Shown: piece after piece, positions 9,211 through 41,119 of the stretch
How positions within the stretch are numbered: the stretch's first letter is position 1
How the letters are laid out: the number at the start of each line of letters is the position of its first letter
Virus record (IMG/VR): IMGVR_UViG_3300012964_000019
Location: 1 to 41,464 of that record
Reading direction: 5' to 3' (one strand)
Source: a virus
Length of the DNA: 41,464 bases
Translations under genes and position numbers: made by a program
Notes under the pieces: model-generated
Databases searched by the model: none
What the model saw: only the letters and a program-made list of their open reading frames with translations
Told to the model about the DNA's origin: nothing

Positions 9211-10170
9211 ATGAAAACAGACACCGACACCATCCTCTGCCTCAGAACCTGTCGGAAAGACGGGTCTAATGAATTCAACGACTTCCGGTGGCCACTGGTG
9301 GTCGGGGCCGTGGCCACGGCCCCGGACTGGGACCCGACCCCCACCTGCGGCTCCGGACTCCACGGCCTGGCCTGGGGGGCCGGGGACGCCGACCTGGTTG
9401 ACCCGGGCCCCGACGCCGTCGGCCTGGTCGTTGAGGCCGCCGCCGGCCAGGTCGTAGACCTCGGAGGCAAGGTCAAGTTTCCGGCCGCCACCGTCCGGTT
9501 CGTCGGGACCCTGGCCAAAGCCGCCTCCTGGCTGGCGGCTGAAACCGGCCGGACCGTTCACTTCGCTGGCGTCACGGCCGGGGACTCCGGCACCGCCACG
9601 GCCGGGGACTACGGCCAGGCCACGGCCGGGGACGGCGGCACCGCCACGGCCGGGAACGACGGCCGGGCCACGGCCGGGGACTACGGCACCGCCACGGCCG
9701 GGAACTACGGCCAGGCCACGGCCGGGGACTCCGGCACCGCCACGGCCGGGAACGGAGGCCGGGCCACGGCCGGGAACGACGGCACCGCCACGGCCGGGAA
9801 CTACGGCCAGGCCACGGCCGGGAACCACGGCCAGGCCACGGCCGGGAACCACGGCACCGCCACGGCCGGGTACTACGGCCAGGCCACGGCCGGGGACTAC
9901 GGCCAGGCCACGGCCGGGAACGGAGGCCGGGCCACGGCCGGGAACCACGGCACCGCCACGGCCGGGAACTACGGCCAGGCCACGGCCGGGGACTCCGGCA
10001 CCGCCACGGCCGGGAACCACGGCACCGCCACGGCCGGGAACCACGGCCGAATCAGTATCGACTGGTTCGACGGCAACCGGGACCGGACGGCCGTCGGCTA
10101 CACCGGAGAGGATGGAATTGAGGCTGGTGTCGCCTACGAGGTGGTTTCTGGGAAATTGGTGAAGGCGTAG
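9211..10170 (+). CDS. Octapeptide-repeat protein with conserved N-terminal domain (DUF7666-like)
   Basis: 319 aa. Residues 1-120 form a compact domain (CLRTCRKDGSNEFNDFRWPL, a CGSGLHGLAWG loop, VVDLGGKVKF). Residues 122-281 are 20 perfect-length octads of TAG[DNY]xG[TQR]A, predicted to stack as a beta-solenoid. A short C-terminal domain (VGYTGEDGIEAGVAYEVV) caps it. Proteins with a GLHG-containing N-domain and such repeats occur in phages and bacteria; function is unknown to me. The N-domain is about 94 percent identical in DNA to the gene at the right edge. The gene is leaderless behind a strong promoter. Confidence 0.7.
   Translation: MKTDTDTILCLRTCRKDGSNEFNDFRWPLVVGAVATAPDWDPTPTCGSGLHGLAWGAGDADLVDPGPDAVGLVVEAAAGQVVDLGGKVKFPAATVRFVGTLAKAASWLAAETGRTVHFAGVTAGDSGTATAGDYGQATAGDGGTATAGNDGRATAGDYGTATAGNYGQATAGDSGTATAGNGGRATAGNDGTATAGNYGQATAGNHGQATAGNHGTATAGYYGQATAGDYGQATAGNGGRATAGNHGTATAGNYGQATAGDSGTATAGNHGTATAGNHGRISIDWFDGNRDRTAVGYTGEDGIEAGVAYEVVSGKLVKA
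9574..10053 (+). repeat. 24-bp tandem repeat array, 20 units, inside CDS
   Basis: Twenty in-frame 24-bp units beginning ACGGCCGGG, each encoding one TAGxxGxA octad. Variation is confined to a few codons: the fourth and fifth residues, and the seventh which switches among Thr, Gln and Arg. The array reads without stops on both strands, which produces a long false minus-strand frame. Confidence 0.95.
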
Positions 10171-15197: not shown

Positions 15198-17762
15198 TTA
15201 CCCGGCGGTTTGGACCACTGGAGCCACGAGGAAATCGATGGTGATGAAATCCAAGGCCGTAGCCAATTTTATTTCTAGTGAAACTTTCATGACGTTACCG
15301 AGGATTTGGACCCTGCCGTTCTTCCAGCCCTTGAGGGCGTCGTCAGAAGCCGCGATGAGCTTCAGCCGGAACATGTCGGCCATGATGACTTCCAAGAAAC
15401 TCAGACCGGTGGCGGCGCTGATGTCGGCTGGAGACTTACCGGCGAATGCCGTCTCCATTCTCTGGGCCGTGGTCAGGGCAATGACGTCGGCGGCATAAAC
15501 GGCCTGCACCGAGTTGAAAACGAAATTGTCATCGCGGCCGTAGGTGGTCTGGTCACTGGCCCAGGTCCAGCCGCCACCAGCCGCTTTCTTGATGGGCATC
15601 AGGCCCGCAGAAAGTGCGTCTTCAAGCTGACTGTCGTTCCGGGAGTCGAAGTCACCGGCGCGTTGGAGGGCACCGCTGATGTTAATGCCCTTGAACTCGA
15701 TATTCCGGTAGAAGCCAGCCGCCTGCATGCCAGCTGCTTTGACCGCCGCCATCCAAGGCAGGAACTGGGTGACGGTGCCGGCGCTGTTAGGCTCCTTGAC
15801 GTCCTGGAAGGGCATGCAGCACCTCCAGCTGGCGATGTTGGAGGCCGTATCCTTGGCGTTGGAGAAGGTGTCGCAGACCGACAGGAAGGCCTGGCGGTTC
15901 TTCCGGCGCTTGAGTGTCGACATAGCCAGGACATGTGACTTGACCGCCGCGTGGACTCCGGCTATGGTGTAGCTGCTTCCGGATTCAGTCAGGGAGTCGG
16001 CTTTATCGGAGGTGGCATCCCGGCTAAAAAGGGGTACGACGAAATTCCCTTGACAGAGTTCTAGTGCCGCCAGAGCCGCGACGACGTCGGAGTCGGCGGT
16101 GGAGCCCTTGGAGGCGCCGCTGAGGTATAGAGAGGCCGCCATGACGTCCGGGAGCCCGGCTCCGGCCTGGGCGGCGGGGTCGCCAACCTGTACCAGCTGG
16201 CTGTTGTCGACAACGGCGTGGTAGAATCTGTAGCCGTCGTCCTTGATACGGGCCACCCCTACTCCATGGGCACTGGCGGCGGTGGTGGTGACGTTATCCA
16301 GTACCGAAACCGGCAGGGTGCCGAGAGCCACCGTGGTGGCGGTGGCGACGTAGGGACTGAGACTGTTGATGTAATCCGCTAGCTCCTGGACGTTGGCGAA
16401 ATCCGACAGAGTCAGGCTCAGGTCGTCGGCGGGGGTGCTGCAGGTCGTGGTCAGGGCGGTGTCGGTGATAACCAGACTGCAGGTGGCTCCGATGTAGCCG
16501 AGGGACATCACGACTTCTCCGCCGGCCGTCCAGGACTCAGAAATACGGTCTGAGGTACGGGCGGCGGCAAGACTGACTCTGTATTCGGCTCCGCTGGTGA
16601 TGAGCTGTGGGGAAGCCAGAGTCGACACCTTGCTGTAGGCAAGGGGGGCGCTGGCACTGACGCTGAACAGGCACCGGGACAACAGGTCATTCCCAGTCGT
16701 CAGCTCCGCGATTTCCATGCTCTTACCAACCCCGTCGATGACGGCTGCCGCGGTATGATTGATGACGACCGGTGCATGACAGCTGACATCCGTCACGGCT
16801 CCGATGGTCTGGGGGGTATCGAGTAGGTCGGCGTCTGCCGGCGCGGTTTTATCCTCGGTGGGGGCCGTGACGACGCCAGCCACGGGACCAGCGGCTCCGG
16901 CGTCGCTGAGCTTCCGGGCAATGACGGTGGCGGCTCCAACGGTCAAAACCAGATAGGCTCCGACGTTGGCGTTATTGAGGCCTGCGATAATAGACCCAGT
17001 GGGGATGATGAGAGTATCCCCGACCGACGGTGCAGCGGCCCAAGCCACGGAGCGGGTGATGAGGACGTTGTTGGCATGAGGCAGGGCGCCGGGGTTGACA
17101 TCCAGAGTCAGGGTACCGGCGACGGTCAGGATTCCCCGGTTGGCGCCACCGGTGGCGTCGACGCCCGCCAGGCCGTTGACGTCGGAAACAAACTGAGCCG
17201 GGGTCCTGTTGGCGACGAGGGTACTGCCGACGGATGCGCCTCCGTTGACCCTGATACCATAAGCTACGGTATCTGCATTCGGAATCCAAGCCAGAGTGGT
17301 GGCGGCCGTAGTCGGGACGGTCTCGGCTTGCGCCGAAGTGGTCCGGTAACTAATCATATTCCCGGGCTTGCCGCTGCTCTTATCGGCTAGAACCGCATAG
17401 GTCCCGCCTCCGATTTTGGGCAGGTTGGCACTGGCCTTAGCCCCGATATTGGTCTTAACCATGATACAGCGGTTGAAGCTAGAGGTGATTTCGGGGTCGT
17501 TGGCGGCGGAGGCAGCGGCCCGGAAGGCATCCACCAGAGGCCCCGAGCGGTATTTAGTGACGACATCAGATACCTGGTCGGGTCCAAAGGCATTGGCTTC
17601 GAGGTCGGTCTCAGCACTGAAGTCGTCGCCGGCATCAGCTTCCCCCACCAGCATAAGAACCCCGGTCGTCGAGAGACCGGAAGGCTGGCTGGCGACACTG
17701 TAGCTGCTGTAAGCCCCAGGGATTTTAAGAGTTCCGTTTACGGTAGAGTAGCTCTTGGCCAT
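15198..17762 (-). CDS. Phage tail sheath protein
   Basis: 854 aa. The N-terminus (STVNGTLKIPGAYSSYSVAS, then GVLMLVGEADAG) and the C-terminal third (PWMAAVKAAGMQAAGFYRNI, ISGALQRAGDFDSRNDSQLE, and WASDQTTYGRDDNFVFNSVQ) carry the conserved sheath core, including the FNSVQAVYAADVI stretch. The middle (about residues 150-500) is a large Ala/Val/Thr-rich insertion, as in sheaths of large phages, probably exposed on the tail surface. The sheath contracts to drive the tube through the envelope. It is the first gene of the sheath-tube unit behind a TAATCT box. Confidence 0.88.
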   Translation of the reverse strand: MAKSYSTVNGTLKIPGAYSSYSVASQPSGLSTTGVLMLVGEADAGDDFSAETDLEANAFGPDQVSDVVTKYRSGPLVDAFRAAASAANDPEITSSFNRCIMVKTNIGAKASANLPKIGGGTYAVLADKSSGKPGNMISYRTTSAQAETVPTTAATTLAWIPNADTVAYGIRVNGGASVGSTLVANRTPAQFVSDVNGLAGVDATGGANRGILTVAGTLTLDVNPGALPHANNVLITRSVAWAAAPSVGDTLIIPTGSIIAGLNNANVGAYLVLTVGAATVIARKLSDAGAAGPVAGVVTAPTEDKTAPADADLLDTPQTIGAVTDVSCHAPVVINHTAAAVIDGVGKSMEIAELTTGNDLLSRCLFSVSASAPLAYSKVSTLASPQLITSGAEYRVSLAAARTSDRISESWTAGGEVVMSLGYIGATCSLVITDTALTTTCSTPADDLSLTLSDFANVQELADYINSLSPYVATATTVALGTLPVSVLDNVTTTAASAHGVGVARIKDDGYRFYHAVVDNSQLVQVGDPAAQAGAGLPDVMAASLYLSGASKGSTADSDVVAALAALELCQGNFVVPLFSRDATSDKADSLTESGSSYTIAGVHAAVKSHVLAMSTLKRRKNRQAFLSVCDTFSNAKDTASNIASWRCCMPFQDVKEPNSAGTVTQFLPWMAAVKAAGMQAAGFYRNIEFKGINISGALQRAGDFDSRNDSQLEDALSAGLMPIKKAAGGGWTWASDQTTYGRDDNFVFNSVQAVYAADVIALTTAQRMETAFAGKSPADISAATGLSFLEVIMADMFRLKLIAASDDALKGWKNGRVQILGNVMKVSLEIKLATALDFITIDFLVAPVVQTAG

Positions 17763-17806: not shown

Positions 17807-20395
17807 TTACTTGGGCTTGTCGGATTTAGTAGGCATGGCCCTGGGTCTGTCGACTTTGGTTGAAATAGAAGCTGTTTCAGAAGACGGGGAGCCGCCGCTA
17901 TCCACTCCCATTTTCCAGCCGGGCTTCAGCTTCGGTGGCGCCACCAGGGTGGGGGAGACAGTGACTTTACCGGGCTTATGGAAGCGGGGGTTTTGCGGCA
18001 GTTCCGCCTTACCCATCTTCTGGTCCAGGCGACCAAAAATCCCGGGTCTAGGTGTAGACTGCTGGGGCTGGAAGGTCGGCTGTCCGGACATGGCGGAGGC
18101 AAAACCGGCCTGGCGGGCGCTGTGCTCAGCCGGAGTCGGCATGGGTTTCTTCGGTAGCTGAGGGGTCTGCTGGGCCTGGGCTACCGTGAATGAATGACTA
18201 AGGGGGTCTGCTCTCCGTGCCGCGTCTGCCATTCCCATGCCGGCCTTCTTTATGTATTCCGTGGACTTGGCTCCGGCCTTGACGTCGTAGTCCCGGTCCT
18301 TGGAAGGTGTTTTGGGGGGAGGCTGTTTACCCGGTACCACGACCTTGCTAACAGCCTTTACGACTGGATCCATGGCCGCACCGGGGATACGGTCGGTCTG
18401 ACCGGAGGCAACCTCTCCTTCAGCCTTTCCAAGACCAGCGGGTTTAGAGACTGGGACATGTGTACCCATGTTCTTGCCGCTGGGTGGCTTCGCCATCGGG
18501 GGTTCGGCCTTCTTGGCCGGCAGCTTGCCGCCGGGGTCCTTGGAAGCAAATTCTTGACCGACCTTCTTCGGGATGCCGAGAGTCCCCTTGCCGGCGGCTG
18601 CGGCGTGCATGGCGCCCCGCTGGGCCTCGGACACCGGAGGCTTGCTCAGGGTCTTCTTGTCCGCCGACATATTCATGAGCTGCTTCTTCAAGGCTTTCAA
18701 GGATTTGGCCGTCTTGACCCGGCCACCACTACCACTGGCTTCAACAGTTTCTTCCTTCTTGTCGCCCGGCAGCTTGCCGTCGGGATTAATGCCGTTGTCG
18801 ATAATCTTGCCCTTGGAGTCCGTCAGGATGGCCTTCTCCATGGCGCACTTGCAGGGTTCGGACTTACAGGTTTTACAGAGTTCGGCTTTAATGTTGATGG
18901 CCGGATCCTGCTTGGCGACCGGCGGCTGACCGGTGACGCCGTTCTGCTTCGGCATGCCGGGGGTCGGGGCTCCGGGGGGAGAACCGACGGCCTTGTCGAG
19001 GCTGCCCTCATTGGATTCCGATGAACTGGACTCCGACAGCTCGGCCTTCTTGGCCTTCACCTTTTCGTGACAAACCTTGCAGACCCCGTCGACAACGGAG
19101 CCTCGGTGGTCGCACTCATGGCCGCCGCGAACATCCTTGTCCTCAGACTGCTTCAGCTTGCCGGCCGGAACGTCCTCGACACCGGCGCCCACCGCCGTCC
19201 CCTGTGTGTGCTTATGGGGAGGGACGAGGGCCTTCTTTAGCTCCCGGGCCCGGAGTTCCTTGATTTCGGCCTCGAAGGTCCTGATTTTATCCTCAGCAGC
19301 CTTCTTCAGGACCTCAGCGGCTTCCGGAAGAGTAAAAGTCTTTTCATCTCTGGCCACGGCTGGGCTCCTTGTTGCACTAAAGATTACGTCGTCGGGTCCC
19401 GACTTCTGGACCCGACTCAGGTCCCGGAGGTGGTCCATAGCCACTGACAGAGGTATGTGGTGGTCGACGGCGCCAAAACCCGGAGGCAGTTGGCCGCCAG
19501 TCAGTTTTGAAAGAGCCTCGGCGACGCCAGTATTCAGGTCCCGGCGGAAATCGGCATCAGACACCGGGAGCCCTATTTTATGAGCTAGGTCCCGCCTCCG
19601 GTGTCCGGCGTCCCAGGCCAGCCGCAGGGCCTGCTGCTGGGGGACGTCGTCTCCATAGCAGCTCCGGGCCGAGGGCCTAGCCAGTTCCTCAGCCACGCCG
19701 TGGAGAACCGCGTGCGCCAGCGCCTGTCGGTGTTCCGGTAGACTCAGATCCGGCTGTGGCGGCACGACGACGACGCCGGGCCCGGGCTCACCGTGCTGCC
19801 GGACCTCGATACCATGCTGTTTGGCGGCTTCCAGTAATTCCGGCAGCTTATCGCCAACCTGGTAGACCGATCCGCCCTGGGCTCCGAGGTGACCGTAGCT
19901 GACCCAGGGCTCAGCCTTTTTCAGACCCGGTTCAACCGGATTCAGAGCCTGTGGGTCTCCATTAAAATCGAAATTGACTCGAAAATAACCTTGATTCCCC
20001 GGTAGTTTGGTGTAGTAGTCTTCCGGGGGCTCGTGGAAGAATTCAATCGGTTCTTTTCCGGCTTCAACACCCCTGACCTTGCCTTCATGGGGTCCATTAG
20101 TATATTGTAAATGATGAATACCTTTGTCCGAGAAGACGAAGCTCTCTTGTCCAAATTTTTTACCCAGCTCCGCCAGTTGTTCCCGGGGTAGGCCATGGAC
20201 GATGACCGACCTCTCCGGAGTCCCGTAGCGGCCATGTGTCTCCTCATGCCGGATGCCGGCATGCCTCAGGTGCCGGACCAGATTTTCATGACTGGCTTCG
20301 ACGGCAGCTGGATGTAGAGGATTATCTCCGCTCAGAATGCCGACTCTGCCTCCTGAGAACAGGGGGTGGCTCTTAAGGTGCTCTGGAATAGGCAT
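17807..20395 (-). CDS. Large virion-associated protein with DUF3293-like N-terminus and zinc fingers
   Basis: 862 aa. Residues 15-95 match the DUF3293 pattern: GRVGILSGDNPLHP, ENLVRHLRHAG, then GRYGTPERSVIVHGLP and LGKKFGQESFVFSDKG. Around residue 430 there is a CDHRGSVVDGVCKVCHEK zinc site and at about 515 a CKTCKSEPCKC cluster. The last 300 residues are Pro/Lys-rich and low-complexity, with many KPP and GKLP segments. Its place between sheath and kelch genes argues for a structural or injected protein; no enzymatic motif is certain. It has its own TAATCT box. Confidence 0.5.
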   Translation of the reverse strand: MPIPEHLKSHPLFSGGRVGILSGDNPLHPAAVEASHENLVRHLRHAGIRHEETHGRYGTPERSVIVHGLPREQLAELGKKFGQESFVFSDKGIHHLQYTNGPHEGKVRGVEAGKEPIEFFHEPPEDYYTKLPGNQGYFRVNFDFNGDPQALNPVEPGLKKAEPWVSYGHLGAQGGSVYQVGDKLPELLEAAKQHGIEVRQHGEPGPGVVVVPPQPDLSLPEHRQALAHAVLHGVAEELARPSARSCYGDDVPQQQALRLAWDAGHRRRDLAHKIGLPVSDADFRRDLNTGVAEALSKLTGGQLPPGFGAVDHHIPLSVAMDHLRDLSRVQKSGPDDVIFSATRSPAVARDEKTFTLPEAAEVLKKAAEDKIRTFEAEIKELRARELKKALVPPHKHTQGTAVGAGVEDVPAGKLKQSEDKDVRGGHECDHRGSVVDGVCKVCHEKVKAKKAELSESSSSESNEGSLDKAVGSPPGAPTPGMPKQNGVTGQPPVAKQDPAINIKAELCKTCKSEPCKCAMEKAILTDSKGKIIDNGINPDGKLPGDKKEETVEASGSGGRVKTAKSLKALKKQLMNMSADKKTLSKPPVSEAQRGAMHAAAAGKGTLGIPKKVGQEFASKDPGGKLPAKKAEPPMAKPPSGKNMGTHVPVSKPAGLGKAEGEVASGQTDRIPGAAMDPVVKAVSKVVVPGKQPPPKTPSKDRDYDVKAGAKSTEYIKKAGMGMADAARRADPLSHSFTVAQAQQTPQLPKKPMPTPAEHSARQAGFASAMSGQPTFQPQQSTPRPGIFGRLDQKMGKAELPQNPRFHKPGKVTVSPTLVAPPKLKPGWKMGVDSGGSPSSETASISTKVDRPRAMPTKSDKPK

Positions 20396-24465: not shown

Positions 24466-25293
24466 TCACAAGCTATCAACAACTTTGTCGACGATCTTCT
24501 TAGAAATTACCCGATCCCATAAATCGACACACCAGGCCTCGCAAGCCTCGAAAAAATGTTTGCCTTCGAGCCCCGGATGCCGCCATCGGCCCTGACCCTG
24601 ATGCTTGCTGCTCGCTATCCTAAACGTCAGAATTCCTCTTTGGACTGAGGACTTACCAGTCTTAGGATCTTTCATCTGACGTTGGTACACCGAAACCCTC
24701 TGCAAAAATGGAATTCCCGTCGGCCCTTGCTTCGGGGCACCGATGGGGCCATGGCCCTGGCCGACCCCTTCGGACATCTTGGCGGGGGCGTTGATATCAA
24801 AGCTGTGTAGTTTCCCGATTTTAGGTCTCCCCTGACTGTCCATTTCAAGTTTCTTATATGGGATGTTCAGCTTCTTCATCTCGCTCTTTATCGTGTCAGT
24901 TAGTGACTTCTGAGCCGGGGTTTGTTGGGTAGGACCTCGGTCATGGCGGAATGGCACGATTAAGTATTTGCTGCCATCTTTAGCTATCCGGGCCTTTTTA
25001 GAGCCCAGTAGACCCGGCAACATATCAAATCCGGCCTGTAGTCCTTCTTCTATGAACATCGCCGAGGCGTCTAGACTCAGGACGAAGGTGTTTTCATCGA
25101 CCTGTTCAAAATGCAACGCCTCGACGTACTTCTCACGGCTGCTGTGGAGTTTCTGCTGCGTCTCCTCAACGACGTGGGCATGACTTTGGATACTGAGGTC
25201 TCTCGCTCCTTCCTTCAGGGCGGCTTCAGCCGCGGGCTGTAGCTCGGTGCTCAGGCTCAGAATGGAGCTTAAATCGAAATCAAACAGAATCAC
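24466..25293 (-). CDS. Probable tail/neck structural protein
   Basis: 275 aa from GTG 25293, overlapping the lipoprotein stop. The N-terminal half is helical (STELQPAAEAALKEGARDLS, EETQQKLHSSREKYVEAL), then a beta segment (VDENTFVLSLDASAMFIEEG), a flexible Pro/Gly stretch and a basic C-terminus. Sequences with this helix-plus-strand layout are usual for phage tail-completion or minor tail proteins of the HK97-gp10/Z class, and the gene lies among virion genes. The specific role is not certain. Confidence 0.45.
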   Translation of the reverse strand: MILFDFDLSSILSLSTELQPAAEAALKEGARDLSIQSHAHVVEETQQKLHSSREKYVEALHFEQVDENTFVLSLDASAMFIEEGLQAGFDMLPGLLGSKKARIAKDGSKYLIVPFRHDRGPTQQTPAQKSLTDTIKSEMKKLNIPYKKLEMDSQGRPKIGKLHSFDINAPAKMSEGVGQGHGPIGAPKQGPTGIPFLQRVSVYQRQMKDPKTGKSSVQRGILTFRIASSKHQGQGRWRHPGLEGKHFFEACEAWCVDLWDRVISKKIVDKVVDSL

Positions 25294-25695: not shown

Positions 25696-26943
25696 CTACT
25701 CACTGCCCCGGCGGCTGCTCTGCGGCGTACCATCAGAAGCCAAAACAACCCCTGCTCTGACACTTCTCCATCGCGTTTGGCCATCTGGGGTTTGAATTTT
25801 GATACGCCCGCCGGTTTTCCCACCCCCGCTGCTGGGGTCAATCTGACTACCGACGGGTAGCTTCACAAGATGCTTTCCCGTGGTCCCCGGCTTCAGAGCG
25901 GCCTTGTCCAGTTCTTTATTGTAATAATTTTTATTTTCAACTAAATGGTCTTTCGCAACCTCTTTGGCCCGTGCCTCATCCAGGCCGTGCTCTTCCATCT
26001 CGGTCTCAATCCCGGTCCGGAGCTGTTCGGCATCAAACTCCGAATCCGGGCGGTCGTCACCCTTACCGCCAGGCATCAAATCTTTGTGGAGGACTCCCTC
26101 CGGAGGCGGAGACTCTTCGGGGAGGGTCTCGACTTTTTCTGATTTCTGGACCTGCTGCTGACCCCCGAATATCTGCCGGGCCATGGCGGTCATGCCCTGC
26201 ACCATGTCGACCATGGACCGGTAGAGGTCCGGGTCCTGTTGCCGGAGCTGCTCCAGCTCCTGGGTCTTGGACTGAAAGGTTTTGAGGACCTTGACGACCT
26301 GGGCTTTCAGAGCCTCTTGGTCTCCGTCGGCCTGGACCTGCTGTTGAGCCTGCGCCTGTCGGGATTCGGCATCCGATTCATGACGCTGCGCCAGCTGGGC
26401 AAAATCATCGTGCAACATCTCAGGATCGCTGACGGGTTCCGGTTTCTGGGGTTCTGGATCCGATTCAGGACCTGATTCACCGACGGGTTCTTCGGGGCCC
26501 ACCGGCGACTCGACTCCAACCTTCTGAGCCTTATTTAGATGGTCTTCGCGCTGGGCGGCGGCAAGAACCTTCTCGACGCCGGGCTCATAAAGAACGATTT
26601 GGTCTTTCCCCAGTAGCTTAGCCGCCTCCAGGGCCTTGTCGGCCTCACTGAACTTCATGCCGACCCCGACGCTACAGGTGGCTCCCACCGCCGTCTCGTA
26701 CTGCTTCCGGATCTGAGGTACTTCCTTCAGGCGGTCGGCGGGAATCTTGATTCTGATTTCTTCACCTCCGGCTTCTACCAGCTGTCCGCCATGACTCAGG
26801 GCAAATTGTTTCCAGAGATTCTCTCCGGCCTCAATGGCTTGTCCGAGACGCCGGAGCCCCTCTTCATCGTCCCTGAGACTGAGACCTCCGGCTTCGCGTC
26901 CAATTCCGTCGCCTGCGGCTGAAATATATACGACGTTACTCAT
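25696..26943 (-). CDS. Virion-region protein with GGDEF/mCpol-like cyclase-fold domain
   Basis: 415 aa from ATG 26943 (AGGA site). Residues 4-120 read as a small nucleotide-cyclase/polymerase palm: YISAAGDGIG, a helix (GLRRLGQAIEAGENLWKQFA), GGQLVEAGGEEIRIKIP, then VGATCSVGVGMKFSEADKAL and AAKLLGKDQIVLYEP. This is the order of GGDEF and minimal CRISPR polymerase (mCpol) domains. The usual first metal-binding Asp is Ala (residue 9), Asp 12 remains, and the GGDE-type turn is GGEE (59-62). Catalysis is therefore doubtful. Acidic, Gln-rich coils follow, then a basic C-terminal domain (GGRIKIQTPDGQTRWRSV). It lies among virion genes. Confidence 0.55.
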   Translation of the reverse strand: MSNVVYISAAGDGIGREAGGLSLRDDEEGLRRLGQAIEAGENLWKQFALSHGGQLVEAGGEEIRIKIPADRLKEVPQIRKQYETAVGATCSVGVGMKFSEADKALEAAKLLGKDQIVLYEPGVEKVLAAAQREDHLNKAQKVGVESPVGPEEPVGESGPESDPEPQKPEPVSDPEMLHDDFAQLAQRHESDAESRQAQAQQQVQADGDQEALKAQVVKVLKTFQSKTQELEQLRQQDPDLYRSMVDMVQGMTAMARQIFGGQQQVQKSEKVETLPEESPPPEGVLHKDLMPGGKGDDRPDSEFDAEQLRTGIETEMEEHGLDEARAKEVAKDHLVENKNYYNKELDKAALKPGTTGKHLVKLPVGSQIDPSSGGGKTGGRIKIQTPDGQTRWRSVRAGVVLASDGTPQSSRRGSE

Positions 26944-27043
26944 TGAAATTCCTAAAGGTTCTTCCGCAAGTAGTTTTCTGCTTACCTTGCACGACTCCGT
27001 CTCTTGGGTCAACAAGTCCATAAATTAGATATCTGGAAGGCAT
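26936..27043 (-). pseudogene. GIY-YIG endonuclease N-terminal remnant
   Basis: 35 codons from ATG 27043. The start, MPSRYLIYGLVDPRDGVVQ, is the signature first strand of GIY-YIG nucleases (Y-x-x-Y-G-L-x-D-P-R), but the rest (GKQKTTCGRTFRNFNE) lacks the following YVG, Arg and Glu elements and then stops. It is most likely the stub of a lost homing endonuclease. It is still placed behind a leaderless TAATCT box and its stop overlaps the start of the cyclase-fold gene (ATGAGTAA), so it may now serve as a leader cistron. Confidence 0.6.
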
Positions 27044-27068: not shown

Positions 27069-27097
27069 TTGACAACCGTCTCTGGAGCCCTTAAGGT
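27069..27097 (+). promoter_or_regulatory. Sigma70-type promoter, with leader
   Basis: TTGACA 27069-27074, 17-nt spacer, TAAGGT 27092-27097, then a 19-nt leader with GGGAGAG before ATG 27117. It is divergent from the TAATCT box at 27051. Confidence 0.75.
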
Positions 27098-27116
27098 TCG
27101 GGTTCGGGAGAGAAAA

Positions 27117-27683
27117 ATGATATTGCGTGAATCCGGACCTCTAAACGTCACTGTCTGTAGCGGAGTCAATGGTCCTAATTACACAATAAGGCTCTGTGGA
27201 CACGACCATCTTCTGCAGGCTCTACCTCAGAACGCTTTTAACATTCTGTCTTTCCGCGCATCGGGCTCCAATGTCGTCGAAGTCGTAACCCAATCACAAC
27301 CCTCACAACCCTCTGTGTTTTTTATCCGGACCGGAATCAGTACTATAGCAGAAATCAGCGCCGAACAAGCCCAGGCTTTTGAGGCGTCTTGGAATTATCT
27401 CCAACTAGCAACAGGTAAGAGTCCTACGGCTATTGCGTCTCAGGTAGAATTTAAAGCAACGGGAACCGGAGACCCTCGATGCATATTCACAGACCTCACA
27501 ACCAATAAAACTTACGAAGGTTTTCCCCCGACCGGGGTTGCTCTGGCGGTACCGGTGCTGGTGGCGATGGATTTTTATCCTGGAGTTAAGAAAATTTCAA
27601 TGCCAGACCAGACCTGTCGCTGCCCTATTAAGAACCTGTTGTCAACCGGTCACGACGACGGCTGTCCAGAAAAAAGACGTTGA
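27117..27683 (+). CDS. Uncharacterised protein with C-x-I-K-NLLSTGHD tail
   Basis: 188 aa. The N-terminal part is beta-rich (LNVTVCSGVNGPNYTIRLCG); a central region reads EISAEQAQAFEASWNYLQLA. The last 22 residues contain CRCPIKNLLSTGHDDGCP, nearly repeated at the end of the unrelated gene 31856-32305. The Cys spacing suggests a metal-binding or interaction tag. No family recognised. First gene of the right plus-strand island. Confidence 0.5.
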   Translation: MILRESGPLNVTVCSGVNGPNYTIRLCGHDHLLQALPQNAFNILSFRASGSNVVEVVTQSQPSQPSVFFIRTGISTIAEISAEQAQAFEASWNYLQLATGKSPTAIASQVEFKATGTGDPRCIFTDLTTNKTYEGFPPTGVALAVPVLVAMDFYPGVKKISMPDQTCRCPIKNLLSTGHDDGCPEKRR

Positions 27684-29872: not shown

Positions 29873-30228
29873 AAATCAGCAAAACCGAGACCCAGAAGCG
29901 ACTGCAGTTCCTCCGTGATTTCTTCAGCCGGGACCCCGACAGCAGCTGCCAGGCGGCTCAACGGGCCCTCAAAGGCGCCTTCGGCCAGGAGATGAGGCCT
30001 CTGGTGGTCTCCGCCATCAAGCGGGGGGTCATCGAGGCCCAAAACGCCGCCATCATCAGCCAGGCCCTCGCCATCACCGATACTGTCCGGGAGTTCAACC
30101 CCAAAGCAGACCCCGGACTCCTCGTCAACATCTTCACTCCAGGCTTGACACCCGGTGACAACTCCGTCATAGTGGCCCCAACCGGCTGCGGTGGCGACTG
30201 CAGCAGCTGCAACTGCGGAGGAAAGTGA
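29869..30228 (+). CDS. Uncharacterised protein with Cys-cluster tail
   Basis: 119 aa. Helical body (GQEMRPLVVSAIKRGVIEAQ), then TPGLTPGDNSVIVAPTGCGG and a C-terminal Cys cluster GCGGDCSSCNCGGK that could bind a metal. It precedes the deoxynucleotide kinase by a one-base stop/start overlap (TGATG). Function unknown. Confidence 0.5.
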   Translation: MKISKTETQKRLQFLRDFFSRDPDSSCQAAQRALKGAFGQEMRPLVVSAIKRGVIEAQNAAIISQALAITDTVREFNPKADPGLLVNIFTPGLTPGDNSVIVAPTGCGGDCSSCNCGGK

Positions 30229-31646
30229 TGCACCCGGTCATCACCCTCTCGGGCCGGAAGAGATCGGGAAAGGGCGTTCTTTCCGACCTGCTGACACAGA
30301 ATGGAGCCCACCAGATTTCCATGGCCGGTTGGCTAAAAAAGGCTGCCGCTCGACTTTTCAGCATCAGCGAGGACAACCTCAATCTTCTAAAAAACGAAGG
30401 CGGAGACCTGCCCCCTATCGACCCCGTCCAAGTCGATGCCCTATGCACGGCAGAACCGGGGTTGTCTCCATTTAAGACTGTGATGCTGGAGCGCAATCCC
30501 TGGAATGCTCGCCATTTTTTACAGTTCTTCGGTACCGAGATTTGCCGGGCATCAGACCCAGAATTCCACACCAAAAAAGCATTCGGAGAAATCGAACGTC
30601 TCCGTGCCATGGGGCCGGTGGTCAGCGACGACGTGAGATTCCCCAATGAGTTGGTGCTCCGGCAGAAAGGGGCCCACTGCTTTTTTATCATCAGCCCTTG
30701 GAACTGGGACGTCTCCAATCACCCTAGCGAGACATCGATACTCTGGGCGGACTTTGACCGCTCCCACATCATCGTCAATGACCAACCTCTTTCTGCATTC
30801 CAGTGGCGATACCGACAGTTCTTTCAGCGGCTATTGAGTCACGGGTCGCCTTGGGAACACCCCATAGCACGTCGCATCTCCGAACTGGCGCAGGAGGGGC
30901 TGTCTAGCACCGACATAGCCCGCCGATTGAAATGCAGCCGCGACAAGGTGATTTGGTGGGCAATTCGCGCCAATCTCCGTTTCCGACACACCCGCTATGA
31001 ATCCCTTGACGCTGCGATGCTGGAGCCAACGGCAGAAACGGCGTACTGGGCTGGACTCCTGATGGCCGATGGCTGCGTCAAGAGGTCCGGGAATTCAAAT
31101 ACCCGCTACGTTGTGGAGCTGACTTCTATCGACAAGGAGCTAGTGGAAGGCTGGAAGAAATTCACTGGTAGCGGGCGCCCCATATACACCAAGGCGGCGT
31201 CCCAACACCCGTTTGGGGACCGGATGTACCAGTGTCAGGCCATTCACGGGCTGATTATCGAAAATCCCTTCATCTTGGAGAATCTCAAATTGTGGGGACT
31301 CAAACCCAGGAAGAGCCTTGATGAAGATATGCCCTACATGGTTCAACAACACCCCGACCTGCTGGGGCCCTGGCTCCGCGGGCTCATCGACGGCGATGGT
31401 TCTGTCTTTCAGACGACGCAGTACGGCAAGCCACAACGCCATGTCGTCGTGCTGACCAGTCACAAACTCAGTGCCTGGCTGCAGGAGACCTTGCGTATTC
31501 CCTGTAGCATCGAACCAGACCATAAGGGGGTTCCGGGCTTGACATCTATGCGCTTCGCTGGCAAAAATGCCGAACGACTCGGCAACCTGGTATCCGGATT
31601 CCCCAGACTCGAAAGAAAATGGGGCCCTCATTTTGAAAACTTGTAA
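30228..31646 (+). CDS. Deoxynucleotide monophosphate kinase fused to LAGLIDADG endonuclease
   Basis: 472 aa from ATG 30228 (GGAGG site). Residues 1-205 are a T4 gp1-like dNMP kinase: P-loop GRKRSGKG (9-16), SDDVRFPNEL (about 131), NHPSETS (about 165) and a C-terminal FDRSHIIVND strand. Then, in frame, a helix-turn-helix (IARRISELAQEGLSSTDIAR, about 213-245) and a two-motif LAGLIDADG nuclease: AYWAGLLMADGCV (about 271) and PWLRGLIDGDGSV (about 380). There is no intein splice junction and no C-terminal extein. The kinase would make dNDPs for replication; the tail is a homing enzyme fused to its end. Confidence 0.8.
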   Translation: MHPVITLSGRKRSGKGVLSDLLTQNGAHQISMAGWLKKAAARLFSISEDNLNLLKNEGGDLPPIDPVQVDALCTAEPGLSPFKTVMLERNPWNARHFLQFFGTEICRASDPEFHTKKAFGEIERLRAMGPVVSDDVRFPNELVLRQKGAHCFFIISPWNWDVSNHPSETSILWADFDRSHIIVNDQPLSAFQWRYRQFFQRLLSHGSPWEHPIARRISELAQEGLSSTDIARRLKCSRDKVIWWAIRANLRFRHTRYESLDAAMLEPTAETAYWAGLLMADGCVKRSGNSNTRYVVELTSIDKELVEGWKKFTGSGRPIYTKAASQHPFGDRMYQCQAIHGLIIENPFILENLKLWGLKPRKSLDEDMPYMVQQHPDLLGPWLRGLIDGDGSVFQTTQYGKPQRHVVVLTSHKLSAWLQETLRIPCSIEPDHKGVPGLTSMRFAGKNAERLGNLVSGFPRLERKWGPHFENL

Positions 31647-31655
31647 GGAGAACTG

Positions 31656-31859
31656 ATGCTGACACCCAGGGAGATGTCGCAGCTCTTTAAGGCCACGACG
31701 GCGATGGCCGGGACCGTCATCAACGGCGACCAGCTGGTCGGCCTCCAGGACGTTCTGGACCTCCTCTGCCTCTACAGCTACGACTACCCCATCGTGACCA
31801 ACAACGGCGCCACCTGGACGCTCCGGTTCCAGGACGCCGAGAAGGAAAAGAAGCGATGA
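31656..31859 (+). CDS. Small uncharacterised protein
   Basis: 67 aa behind an AAGGAG site. Helical N-terminus (MSQLFKATTAMAGTVINGDQ), a short beta hairpin and an EKEKKR tail whose codons form the ribosome site for the next gene (ATGA overlap). No family recognised. Confidence 0.45.
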   Translation: MLTPREMSQLFKATTAMAGTVINGDQLVGLQDVLDLLCLYSYDYPIVTNNGATWTLRFQDAEKEKKR

Positions 31860-32305
31860 AATATCGGGTCAAGGTCCTGAACTACGACGGGGTTCCGGAC
31901 TCCAGCGGCGAAATCTTTAGGCCCCAGGGCCTTCAACTCCCGTACCAAAGCCTGCCGATATACCAGGGTCCGCCGATGGTTGAAAACCTCATCGGATATG
32001 CGGACCCGGAATCAAAATCCGACGGCCTCTACGCCGACCTGGAATTCATCGACCTCTGGCAGCGATACCTCTATGACCTCTTGCTTCACACCCCCTACGT
32101 GATTGGCTTGGTTCATGACCATCGAGGTCCTGAAATCTTAAAGTATTCAGTAAATGCCATCGGGCTTTCAACTGGTCCGAATGTCGACCGGCGGGTCCTC
32201 AGTATCCGAGACCAGATTTCTTGGAAGCCGGTGGTCTGCTGCTGTGACATCCGAAATCTGCTGTCAACAGGTCACGACTCCTGCTGCCTGGAGAAGAAGA
32301 AATGA
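31856..32305 (+). CDS. Uncharacterised protein with C-x-I-R-NLLSTGHD tail
   Basis: 149 aa. The body looks like a small beta sandwich (YRVKVLNYDGVPDSSGEIFR, YADLEFIDLWQRYLYDLLL). The last 25 residues (CCCDIRNLLSTGHDSCCLE) repeat the Cys-flanked NLLSTGHD motif of the gene at 27117, though the rest of the two proteins differs. The DNA of the motif is also close (19 of 21 bases over CTGyTGTCAACmGGTCACGAC). Confidence 0.5.
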   Translation: MKYRVKVLNYDGVPDSSGEIFRPQGLQLPYQSLPIYQGPPMVENLIGYADPESKSDGLYADLEFIDLWQRYLYDLLLHTPYVIGLVHDHRGPEILKYSVNAIGLSTGPNVDRRVLSIRDQISWKPVVCCCDIRNLLSTGHDSCCLEKKK

Positions 32306-39407: not shown

Positions 39408-39954
39408 TGTCGTCACCCATCAGTGCCTTCCGGAGCGCCTTACGATGGACGGTCCTCAACCGATGGCAGTTGGAACACACCACTTCACATTTAGCCAATT
39501 CCTCCTGAAGAATTTTTATATTGACAGGAGTCCAAGCCATAGTAGATATATTCCCGACTTTAACGCCTCGAACGTGGTCAAAATCCATGACCGCAGTATG
39601 ATAGCTCACACCGCAATCTGCACAAGGATTACTTTTAATATTATTGATCAAATCTATATTTCGGCGCTTAAGCTCTTTGATACATTTCTTCTGTTGTTCT
39701 CGTCTTTGGGGTTCTTTATTTTTGACTGAATAGTAGGTAGCAAGATGCTCCTTGTTGTTGCTTTTAAATTCAGACATAGCTACCTTGTGTTTTTCCCACC
39801 CCGGTGCACCTTTCTTACGATAAGCAGTGATCCTTTTGGTGCGGCACCGTTTGCAGGTTTGGCGTCGTAAAATATTTCCCGTTTTCTTGGACACGCCCCT
39901 GAGGCTGAAGGATTCCTCGTCTTTTTCAATTCCGCACAAATTACAGATTTTCAT
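39400..39954 (-). CDS. HNH homing endonuclease
   Basis: 184 aa from ATG 39954, inside the last 14 bp of the preceding gene. N-terminal zinc ribbon (CNLCGIEKDEESF, CKRCRTKRITAYRKK), basic middle, and an HNH domain: NPCADCGVSYHTAVMDFDHV, then EVVCSNCHRLRTVHRK. It is AT-rich relative to both flanking genes and overlaps them, as expected for an inserted homing gene. Confidence 0.85.
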   Translation of the reverse strand: MKICNLCGIEKDEESFSLRGVSKKTGNILRRQTCKRCRTKRITAYRKKGAPGWEKHKVAMSEFKSNNKEHLATYYSVKNKEPQRREQQKKCIKELKRRNIDLINNIKSNPCADCGVSYHTAVMDFDHVRGVKVGNISTMAWTPVNIKILQEELAKCEVVCSNCHRLRTVHRKALRKALMGDDNG

Positions 39955-41029
39955 AACGCAAGGCTCTTATCAATGCCTTAACCAAATGCAAATCCGACCC
40001 AATCTTAAACTCTATCACACTTCCGTCTTCATATACAGTAGTCGTGATATTTTTTCGCAATTCGGACCAACAAAGACACCCGACAAAGCGCCCATTTTTA
40101 AAAATTACCCCGTCACAGGCCGGACAGCTGCGCTCCAGGTCCGACTTCCCGACTTTCAGAGACGGAATTTTCGGGATTTTAGGCAGTTTCACCCCGGGTT
40201 TGGCCCCGCCTCCGGGCTGCTGGGGCTGTTGAGGCTTCTGGGGATTAACACCTTTTGCTTGGACGTCAGGGCCCTGAGGAGGGGTGGGGCCCAACTGTTT
40301 CTGGGGTCTGGCGGTCTGGCCCGGGAGTTCAGTCTTGTAAGTACTGCGGAACGCAGCCCCCTCATCGGTCTGGACATCTCCGGCCAGAATGGGCTTCCCG
40401 CTGATCTTTTTGGCGTGGTCGTACATGGCCGAAGCCAGGCCCCGACGCTGGTGGTCGTCGTCTACGGTTACCGTAACGGGTTTCAGGCCCTCGGGGTGGT
40501 GACTGAACCAAGCCGTGCCGACGTGCTGACCTCCGGGCGCAAAGGCGTGAACCTTAAGGCCAGCCGGGCCGTGCTCCTCCTTCAGCTGGTAGCCGGCTCC
40601 GGGGTCCAGGACTTTCTTAGCCAGCGACTTCGTCAGTTCCTGCGTCCGGGCCAGGGCGTCAATCGAAGCCCCTAACCTCAGCAGCTGTCGGTCTTTGGCG
40701 CGGCCACTACCGGGAGCCGGGACTCCCAGACTTACGGCTACGGCCGCAGCCATAAACTCCGGAGAAGCCGTCTGAAACTCCAGGGTCTGGTCGCCGCCGA
40801 GACTGATAACGCCCTGGAATCCGGCCTCGGATTTCTGAAAACGTAAATAACTATTGTCGTCCCCCGGCACCCGCCCCTCATAGTAGTCCCGCAGCCCCAA
40901 CCAGGCCAGGGCGGCGCGGGGTACCAGTAAAGGCTCTAGGGTGGGTTCGGCGTCAGTGGCTTTTTCAAGGGCTGAAGCTCCTTCGACGCCGAGAGTCTCT
41001 TTCAAAAAGCCATAAACACTGGAATCCAT
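39941..41029 (-). CDS. Probable virion protein with GNAT-like domain and zinc knuckle
   Basis: 362 aa from ATG 41029, 7 nt after a TAATCT box. Residues about 160-250 read as a GNAT fold (VGTAWFSHHPEGLKPVTVTV, DDDHQRRGLASAMYDHAKKI, including the QRRGLA acetyl-CoA loop). A Pro/Gln-rich linker follows, then CPACDGVIFKNGRFVGCLCW (about 310-330), a zinc knuckle that recurs at the C-terminus of virion-region proteins of large phages. Whether the GNAT domain acetylates or only binds is unknown. Confidence 0.55.
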   Translation of the reverse strand: MDSSVYGFLKETLGVEGASALEKATDAEPTLEPLLVPRAALAWLGLRDYYEGRVPGDDNSYLRFQKSEAGFQGVISLGGDQTLEFQTASPEFMAAAVAVSLGVPAPGSGRAKDRQLLRLGASIDALARTQELTKSLAKKVLDPGAGYQLKEEHGPAGLKVHAFAPGGQHVGTAWFSHHPEGLKPVTVTVDDDHQRRGLASAMYDHAKKISGKPILAGDVQTDEGAAFRSTYKTELPGQTARPQKQLGPTPPQGPDVQAKGVNPQKPQQPQQPGGGAKPGVKLPKIPKIPSLKVGKSDLERSCPACDGVIFKNGRFVGCLCWSELRKNITTTVYEDGSVIEFKIGSDLHLVKALIRALRYENL

Positions 41030-41036
41030 GTCTGTT

Positions 41037-41042
41037 AGATTA
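41037..41042 (-). promoter_or_regulatory. TAATCT late-type -10 box, leaderless
   Basis: TAATCT on the minus strand, 7 nt (AACAGAC) before ATG 41029. It is back to back with the plus-strand promoter at 41048. Confidence 0.6.
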
Positions 41043-41047
41043 CACCG

Positions 41048-41076
41048 TTGACAGCCAAAGATGAATTCGATATAGG
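41048..41076 (+). promoter_or_regulatory. Sigma70-type promoter, copy 1
   Basis: TTGACA 41048-41053, 17-nt spacer, TATAGG 41071-41076, 7 nt to ATG 41084. Confidence 0.7.
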
Positions 41077-41083
41077 AGAAGAT

Positions 41084-41119
41084 ATGAAAGCCAAAACCGT
41101 CAAGAAGTCCCACCGTTGA
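41084..41119 (+). CDS. 11-residue minicistron from duplicated start
   Basis: The first copy of the duplicated start reads MKAKTVKKSHR and then stops because the second promoter copy follows. The TGA lies within the -35 of copy 2. Likely a by-product of the duplication. Confidence 0.4.
   Translation: MKAKTVKKSHR

Follow-up and report, generated by a model that had tools for sequence, protein, structure and literature searches.

Why would a phage encode, among the genes of its virion, a protein that begins with a domain of bacterial anti-phage defence? Two studies of 2025 (PMC12657218, PMC12657230) described mCpol as the signalling enzyme of the bacterial Panoptes defence against phages, its product holding a toxic effector in check, and the authors of one of them expected phages to have an answer. 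The locus considered here is an mCpol-like gene in the viral record IMGVR_UViG_3300012964_000019, a stretch of 41,464 bases that was analysed over its whole length and is referred to as the window. The protein originally predicted at this locus was confirmed together with all peptides quoted from it, and it is encoded on the minus strand (26943→25696), which the original prediction had left unstated. Translation starts at the ATG at 26943, with AGGA just 5' of it; homologues begin at this same Met, so an in-frame ATG at 27021 is unlikely to be the start. The gene, its N-terminal domain and the key residues of that domain are as follows:

25696..26943, minus strand: whole gene, encoding a modular protein of 415 amino acids with an N-terminal mCpol-like domain (Pfam, shared start Met)
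26518..26943, minus strand: mCpol palm domain, residues 1-142 (Pfam match, AF2 model, Foldseek matches to OptS)
26914..26916, minus strand: Ala10 codon GCA, in place of a catalytic Asp (OptS Asp6, by alignment to OptS)
26758..26763, minus strand: Glu61-Glu62 of GGEE in the beta hairpin, at the position of OptS Asp57 (GGDE in relatives)
26617..26619, minus strand: Lys109, retained, an invariant Lys/Arg in intact orthologues (orthologue alignment)

The identity of the domain is evident from profiles. Residues 6-119 match the Pfam family mCpol (PF18182) over profile positions 1-114 of 114 with an E-value of 9.9e-12 (45.7 bits, curated cut-off 26.4), the sole Pfam family above cut-off in the protein, and the NCBIfam mCpol model scores 31.7 bits, under its cut-off of 40. 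When the window protein was compared with PDB sequences by phmmer, two sequences of Panoptes OptS ranked first (E 0.002-0.003); a profile of the phage family presented below reaches OptS at E 3e-14, and 27 of 28 phage domains match PF18182 (best E 2.4e-20). Such profile E-values lie far beyond chance, and a chance similarity to mCpol was rejected. A Pfam search of the window record with GGDEF (PF00990) had no match, a PHROGs search found no family covering the mCpol domain, and a PADLOC run gave nothing useful.

Structure prediction led to the same family. An AlphaFold model of residues 1-144, built with a 26-row alignment, has a mean pLDDT of 96.2 and shows the order beta-alpha-alpha-beta-beta-alpha-beta-alpha-beta expected for a palm, with predicted elements beta 4-11, alpha 14-23, alpha 27-50, beta hairpin 54-59/62-68, alpha 69-86, beta 90-95, alpha 98-110 and beta 116-118. 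Panoptes OptS structures (9pd0, 9mnr and 9nwn among the top) take Foldseek ranks 1-5 and 8 for this model, with TM scores of 0.84-0.88 by target length and an rmsd of 1.4-1.9 Å, while GGDEF domains rank after OptS with TM scores mostly about 0.4-0.6. The palm of OptS is matched over its full length at 24-28% identity. The closest predicted viral structure is the BFVD model A0A6J5L1I5 of an uncharacterized protein of an uncultured Caudovirales phage, compared by structure (TM 0.86 on the query, rmsd 1.2 Å). The palm core foreseen from the letters alone is thus present by structure prediction and fold search, and of the two classes named for it, GGDEF or mCpol, only the latter holds: the N-terminal domain is mCpol, with a palm of the OptS/Cas10 type, and not GGDEF.

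The placement of the gene among virion genes was borne out as well, its neighbours being connector and tail genes. Two of them anchor the comparison with other phages:

15198..17762, minus strand: tail sheath, which puts the window beside Myxococcus phage Mx1 (sequence comparison)
24466..25293, minus strand: next core gene of the connector region (phrog_16819), adjoining the mCpol gene in orthologous loci

Among cultured phages, Myxococcus phage Mx1 is the nearest (tail sheath 42% identical); it has a genome of 169.6 kb and a contractile tail (PMC10720576). Its syntenic orthologue is WNM70340, annotated as a hypothetical protein, which has the same next gene and agrees in module order; the mCpol domain is recognisable but more degenerate (21.0 bits, below the Pfam cut-off), its catalytic Asp being replaced by Ser and GGDE lost. 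Querying viral contigs with the window protein, like the first two alignments, yielded at most one relative, and tblastn of phage records with the mCpol domain found Mx1 only, the one cultured relative found to carry the gene. Relatives were recovered instead by searching IMG/VR with the next gene, which gave 79 loci whose reading frames were then profile-searched; the mCpol gene lies upstream of the next gene in these loci, with 28 distinct members including the window, Mx1 and L007. A second search, independent of the first and using only the domain, returned 21 loci, six of them new and the remaining ones on contigs already in the set, and all six new loci have the same next gene, so that the gene is a fixed one in this phage group. 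The total is 34 phage members, each directly upstream of the same connector-region gene, and the near-complete member genomes (~165-180 kb) are Mx1-like. A scan of cellular genome contigs with a narrow peptide pattern gave no cellular relatives, which does not show their absence.

Is the phage domain an enzyme? The catalytic residues of KpOptS are Asp6 and Asp57 (PMC12657218). In our alignment these correspond to Ala10 and Glu61 of the window protein, so that acidic residues are not present at both positions. The first metal-binding Asp had been reported as lost from this domain, and the loss is real, although the residue is Ala10 and not Ala9. A single sequencing error was rejected as its cause because turning GCA into an Asp codon takes two base changes or more. 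The GGEE turn, by contrast, had been taken as a sign of degeneration, and this does not hold: the motif of GGDEF enzymes is defined as GG[DE][DE]F (PMC12657218), and 6eib, labelled an "active GGEEF domain", is among the structural matches found by Foldseek. GGEE as a disabling change was accordingly rejected. The phage proteins have GGDE (GGEE in the window) where OptS has AADG, and intact phage relatives have the catalytic Asp pair in common with OptS. Since its first catalytic Asp is Ala, the window domain is most likely catalytically dead. It has lost Asp10 and Asn41 and keeps Asp12, Gly15, Glu62 and Lys109; by these residues it ranks among the mildest pseudoenzymes of the phage set and is most likely kept as a folded, non-catalytic remnant, possibly a nucleotide binder.

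The description of the palm as degenerate fits the window protein and not most of its orthologues. The active site of DGD and GGDE is complete, with Asp10 and Asp61, in 22 of the 34 phage members, and the 12 degenerate ones are the window, Mx1 and ten others. The family is therefore mainly a phage-encoded putative enzyme, with the window protein as a pseudoenzyme member. Five residues that had no part in this classification follow the same division: Gly15 (22/22 intact versus 2/12 degenerate), Lys/Arg109 (22/22 versus 4/12), Glu62 (22/22 versus 5/12), Asn41 (20/22 versus 3/12) and Asp12 (22/22 versus 8/12), with Fisher p values from 5e-7 to 0.01 that overstate the number of independent events because the rows are related. 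The scaffold glycines G53, G93 and G95 are kept in both groups alike. Read from the alignment, the pattern is that of an enzyme with pseudoenzyme offshoots. With active-site columns left out and OptS as outgroup, the tree places intact members at its base, nearest the bacterial OptS root, hence the loss looks derived; the best trees need three to five changes, and well-supported branches force only one. Most active-site positions are lost in Mx1, L007, L029, L035 and L038. It may also be speculated that Asp or Glu at the position of OptS N34, found in many phage members, perhaps favours guanine.

What the domain is attached to bears on how it might act. In most orthologues the mCpol domain is followed by an acidic and Pro-rich linker, then by a helical module, by variable modules such as DUF5661 or GNAT, and by a C-terminal beta module. 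In a full-length model of the window protein there are four ordered blocks, and the linkers at about 143-173, 262-289 and 343-377 are wholly or partly at very low confidence. The modules and the putative cleavage sites between them are:

26167..26424, minus strand: helical module, residues 174-259, conserved in most orthologues (alignment and model)
25915..26037, minus strand: DUF5661-like helical module, residues 303-343, variable cargo (Pfam E 2.6e-5; 24.9 bits, just under the cut-off of 27)
25708..25806, minus strand: C-terminal beta module (WRSVRAG...SSR), conserved in most orthologues (alignment and model)
26527..26532, minus strand: Lys138-Ala139 of LNKAQ, putative prohead-protease site where the last mCpol helix ends (motif)
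26140..26145, minus strand: Lys267-Ser268 of VQKSE, putative prohead-protease site in the disordered linker 262-289 (motif)
25900..25905, minus strand: Lys347-Ala348 of LDKAA, putative prohead-protease site in the disordered linker 343-362 (motif)

Among these three sites only K267 fits the strict motif [LIVMF]xK[AS][EDG], and K138 and K347 fit the looser [LIVMF]xK[AS]. Compared with composition shuffles, the strict motif is about 8-fold enriched beyond residue 125, i.e. in the linkers (54 versus 7.0 expected), and occurs once inside the mCpol domain (1.9 expected) and twice in tail sheaths (6.9 expected), an enrichment that is not made of independent events because the rows are related. Lys stands out at its position (54, maximum 15 in 200 shuffles), the next residue there being His (12 versus 3.5). 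K[AS]E is similarly frequent in the morphogenesis module of Mx1 (21 versus 6.9 expected; elsewhere 17 versus 17.4), where it is high in the portal and in the protein before the capsid gene and not in sheath or tube. Recovered major capsid proteins have a similar LxKA at their N-termini, and FAKA lies inside the Mx1 protease ORF. In HK97, the protease cleaves the capsid protein at Lys-Ser. From these patterns we infer cutting by the prohead protease. Four members forming a divergent subgroup (L037, L041, L117 and L118) have an intact mCpol domain, no LxK[AS][EDG] linker sites and a different acidic C-terminal half, and perhaps face a protease of different specificity.

The reading that we consider probable, with some reserve, is that of a head-cargo polyprotein cut by the prohead protease, from which the mCpol domain is released and probably ejected, ancestrally an enzyme and here a pseudoenzyme. 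In this view the phage is a large one with a contractile tail, like Mx1, and the gene product is a modular protein carried as cargo in its head. During head assembly, the prohead protease would cut after the Lys of [LIVMF]xK[AS] between modules, leaving the mCpol domain (~15 kDa) free inside the head, from where it would be ejected along with the DNA. The domain would have joined this phage group as an enzyme, most relatives keeping a complete active site, and the intact ones would be expected to synthesise a cyclic dinucleotide early in infection.

Proteins with such a fate are known. Alt and the internal proteins of phage T4 are packaged, cut by the prohead protease and ejected with the DNA. 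Late head proteins of phage SPN3US are cut in the prohead and ejected with the DNA (PMC10052503). The mCpol proteins are likewise late; packaging is here predicted from sequence patterns, the putative cut motif differs and the cargo is mCpol. Several unrelated modules in one late-gene protein, as found here, also characterise polyvalent phage proteins, multidomain late-gene products with effector domains that are predicted to be packaged and injected and for which GGDEF domains are mentioned (Iyer et al. 2017, PMC5512222). The word mCpol is absent from that paper, no metallopeptidase module was seen in the phage mCpol proteins, and their linker sites point to the prohead protease. Both the mCpol domain and packaged polyvalent proteins are thus already known, while no description of a phage-encoded mCpol was found in the literature searched, subscription papers such as a 2015 survey naming mCpol being outside it. 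In contrast to OptS, the phage version is phage-encoded, N-terminal in a multi-module late protein and, in the window, devoid of the Asp6 equivalent.

A serious though unlikely alternative is structural reuse, where the palm serves as a folding or assembly module of a neck or head protein and catalyses nothing in any member. The constant position of the gene within the morphogenesis module agrees with this, as does the retention of the fold in the 12 members that lost catalytic residues, the window included, and the location beside connector and tail genes is equally compatible with a neck part that is never packaged. However, catalytic and neighbouring residues are invariant in 22 members despite low identity (46% mean pairwise and 26% minimum among the first 16), and residues that are invariant and decay together when lost are not demanded by structure alone.

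If the domain is head cargo with an enzymatic ancestry, a target can be tentatively proposed, at a rather low probability: in large phages, packaged active mCpol would be injected and, right from the start of infection, supply cyclic dinucleotides that silence Panoptes-type effectors or jam CBASS or type III signalling, and activity would be lost where hosts lack the guard, as in the window and Mx1. The effector is held back by the OptS product and set off by sponges (PMC12657218, PMC12657230), so that blunting of Panoptes would be the hypothetical outcome if an active mCpol were injected. A phage family with mostly intact mCpol in a protein that looks suited to packaging is a directly testable candidate for the phage answer, and infected cells may receive such enzymes from the phage. 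A series graded from intact to dead active sites is available, and the cultured relative Mx1 allows packaging and cutting to be checked. The OptE/S-2TMbeta effector (PF18153) had no match in 12 phage records, in a search where the control was equally silent.

We regard as improbable that degenerate members act as sponges or decoys, binding CBASS or Panoptes second messengers without making them. The window protein itself, with K109, E62, D12 and G15 kept and Asp10 and N41 lost, fits binding without catalysis, but the Mx1 branch, where nearly all active-site positions are gone (L007, L029, L035 and L038 likewise lacking most of them), is poorly explained, and a sponge would be costly against Panoptes given that sponges such as Acb2 trigger it (PMC12657218, PMC12657230). 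That the domain is a degenerate diguanylate cyclase is scarcely credible, since the shared palm fold, the GG[DE]E hairpin and the presence of a separate GGDEF protein in the same phages are set against the missing Pfam GGDEF match in the window, the best profile and fold matches to mCpol/OptS and the fact that the GGDEF proteins are products of a different gene. Such a protein was found in nine of 12 Mx1-like phage records tested (Mx1 WNM70324 and L090-L098); the GGDEF motif and the upstream Asp motif are present in the eight selected by regular expression, and the ninth reads GGDEM. Both motifs look intact in the members inspected, so active-site loss is particular to the mCpol gene. In Mx1, WNM70324 (L003:2174-2905) is flanked by the prohead protease on one side and the major capsid protein on the other.

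Returning to the head-cargo reading, two further late proteins of the window are likely cargo:

17807..20395, minus strand: second likely head-cargo protein with a DUF3293-like N-terminal domain (7 K[AS]E sites versus 0.9 expected)
39941..41113, minus strand: third likely head-cargo protein with a GNAT-like domain (likeness to Mx1 WNM70337 read by eye)

The former, whose Mx1 counterpart also matches SAM lyase weakly, is a possible packaged anti-restriction module; the latter differs from WNM70337 in having the GNAT-like domain. Chimeric late neighbours in Mx1 carry NUDIX, ART-PolyVal, GNAT, HipA/PI-kinase-like and SAM-lyase/DUF3293-like domains, ART being the one whose name refers to polyvalent proteins, which as a class are predicted to be injected (PMC5512222). 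Two very large chimeric late proteins of Mx1, L003:9405-13844 and L003:13852-15711 (NUDIX/ART-PolyVal/GNAT and HipA/PI-kinase-like), the first with an excess of K[AS]E sites, are likely further head cargo.

Some observations concern other genes. The major capsid protein match in L125 (the record of L024) crosses one in-frame TAG, for which a sequencing error, recoding or an interrupted gene are candidates. On the plus strand of the window, the otherwise different proteins at 27069-27683 and 31856-32305 have a Cys-rich C-terminal tail in common (C.C.I[KR]NLLSTGHD..C.EK[RK]), and the protein at 30225-31646 reads by eye as a deoxynucleoside monophosphate kinase-like N-terminal part followed by a LAGLIDADG-type homing endonuclease-like part. 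Imperfect repeats of the ATAG[ND]xGxATAGDxG type follow one another at length in the plus-strand protein at 9211-10170 and form a low-complexity stretch that is apparently beta-solenoid-like.
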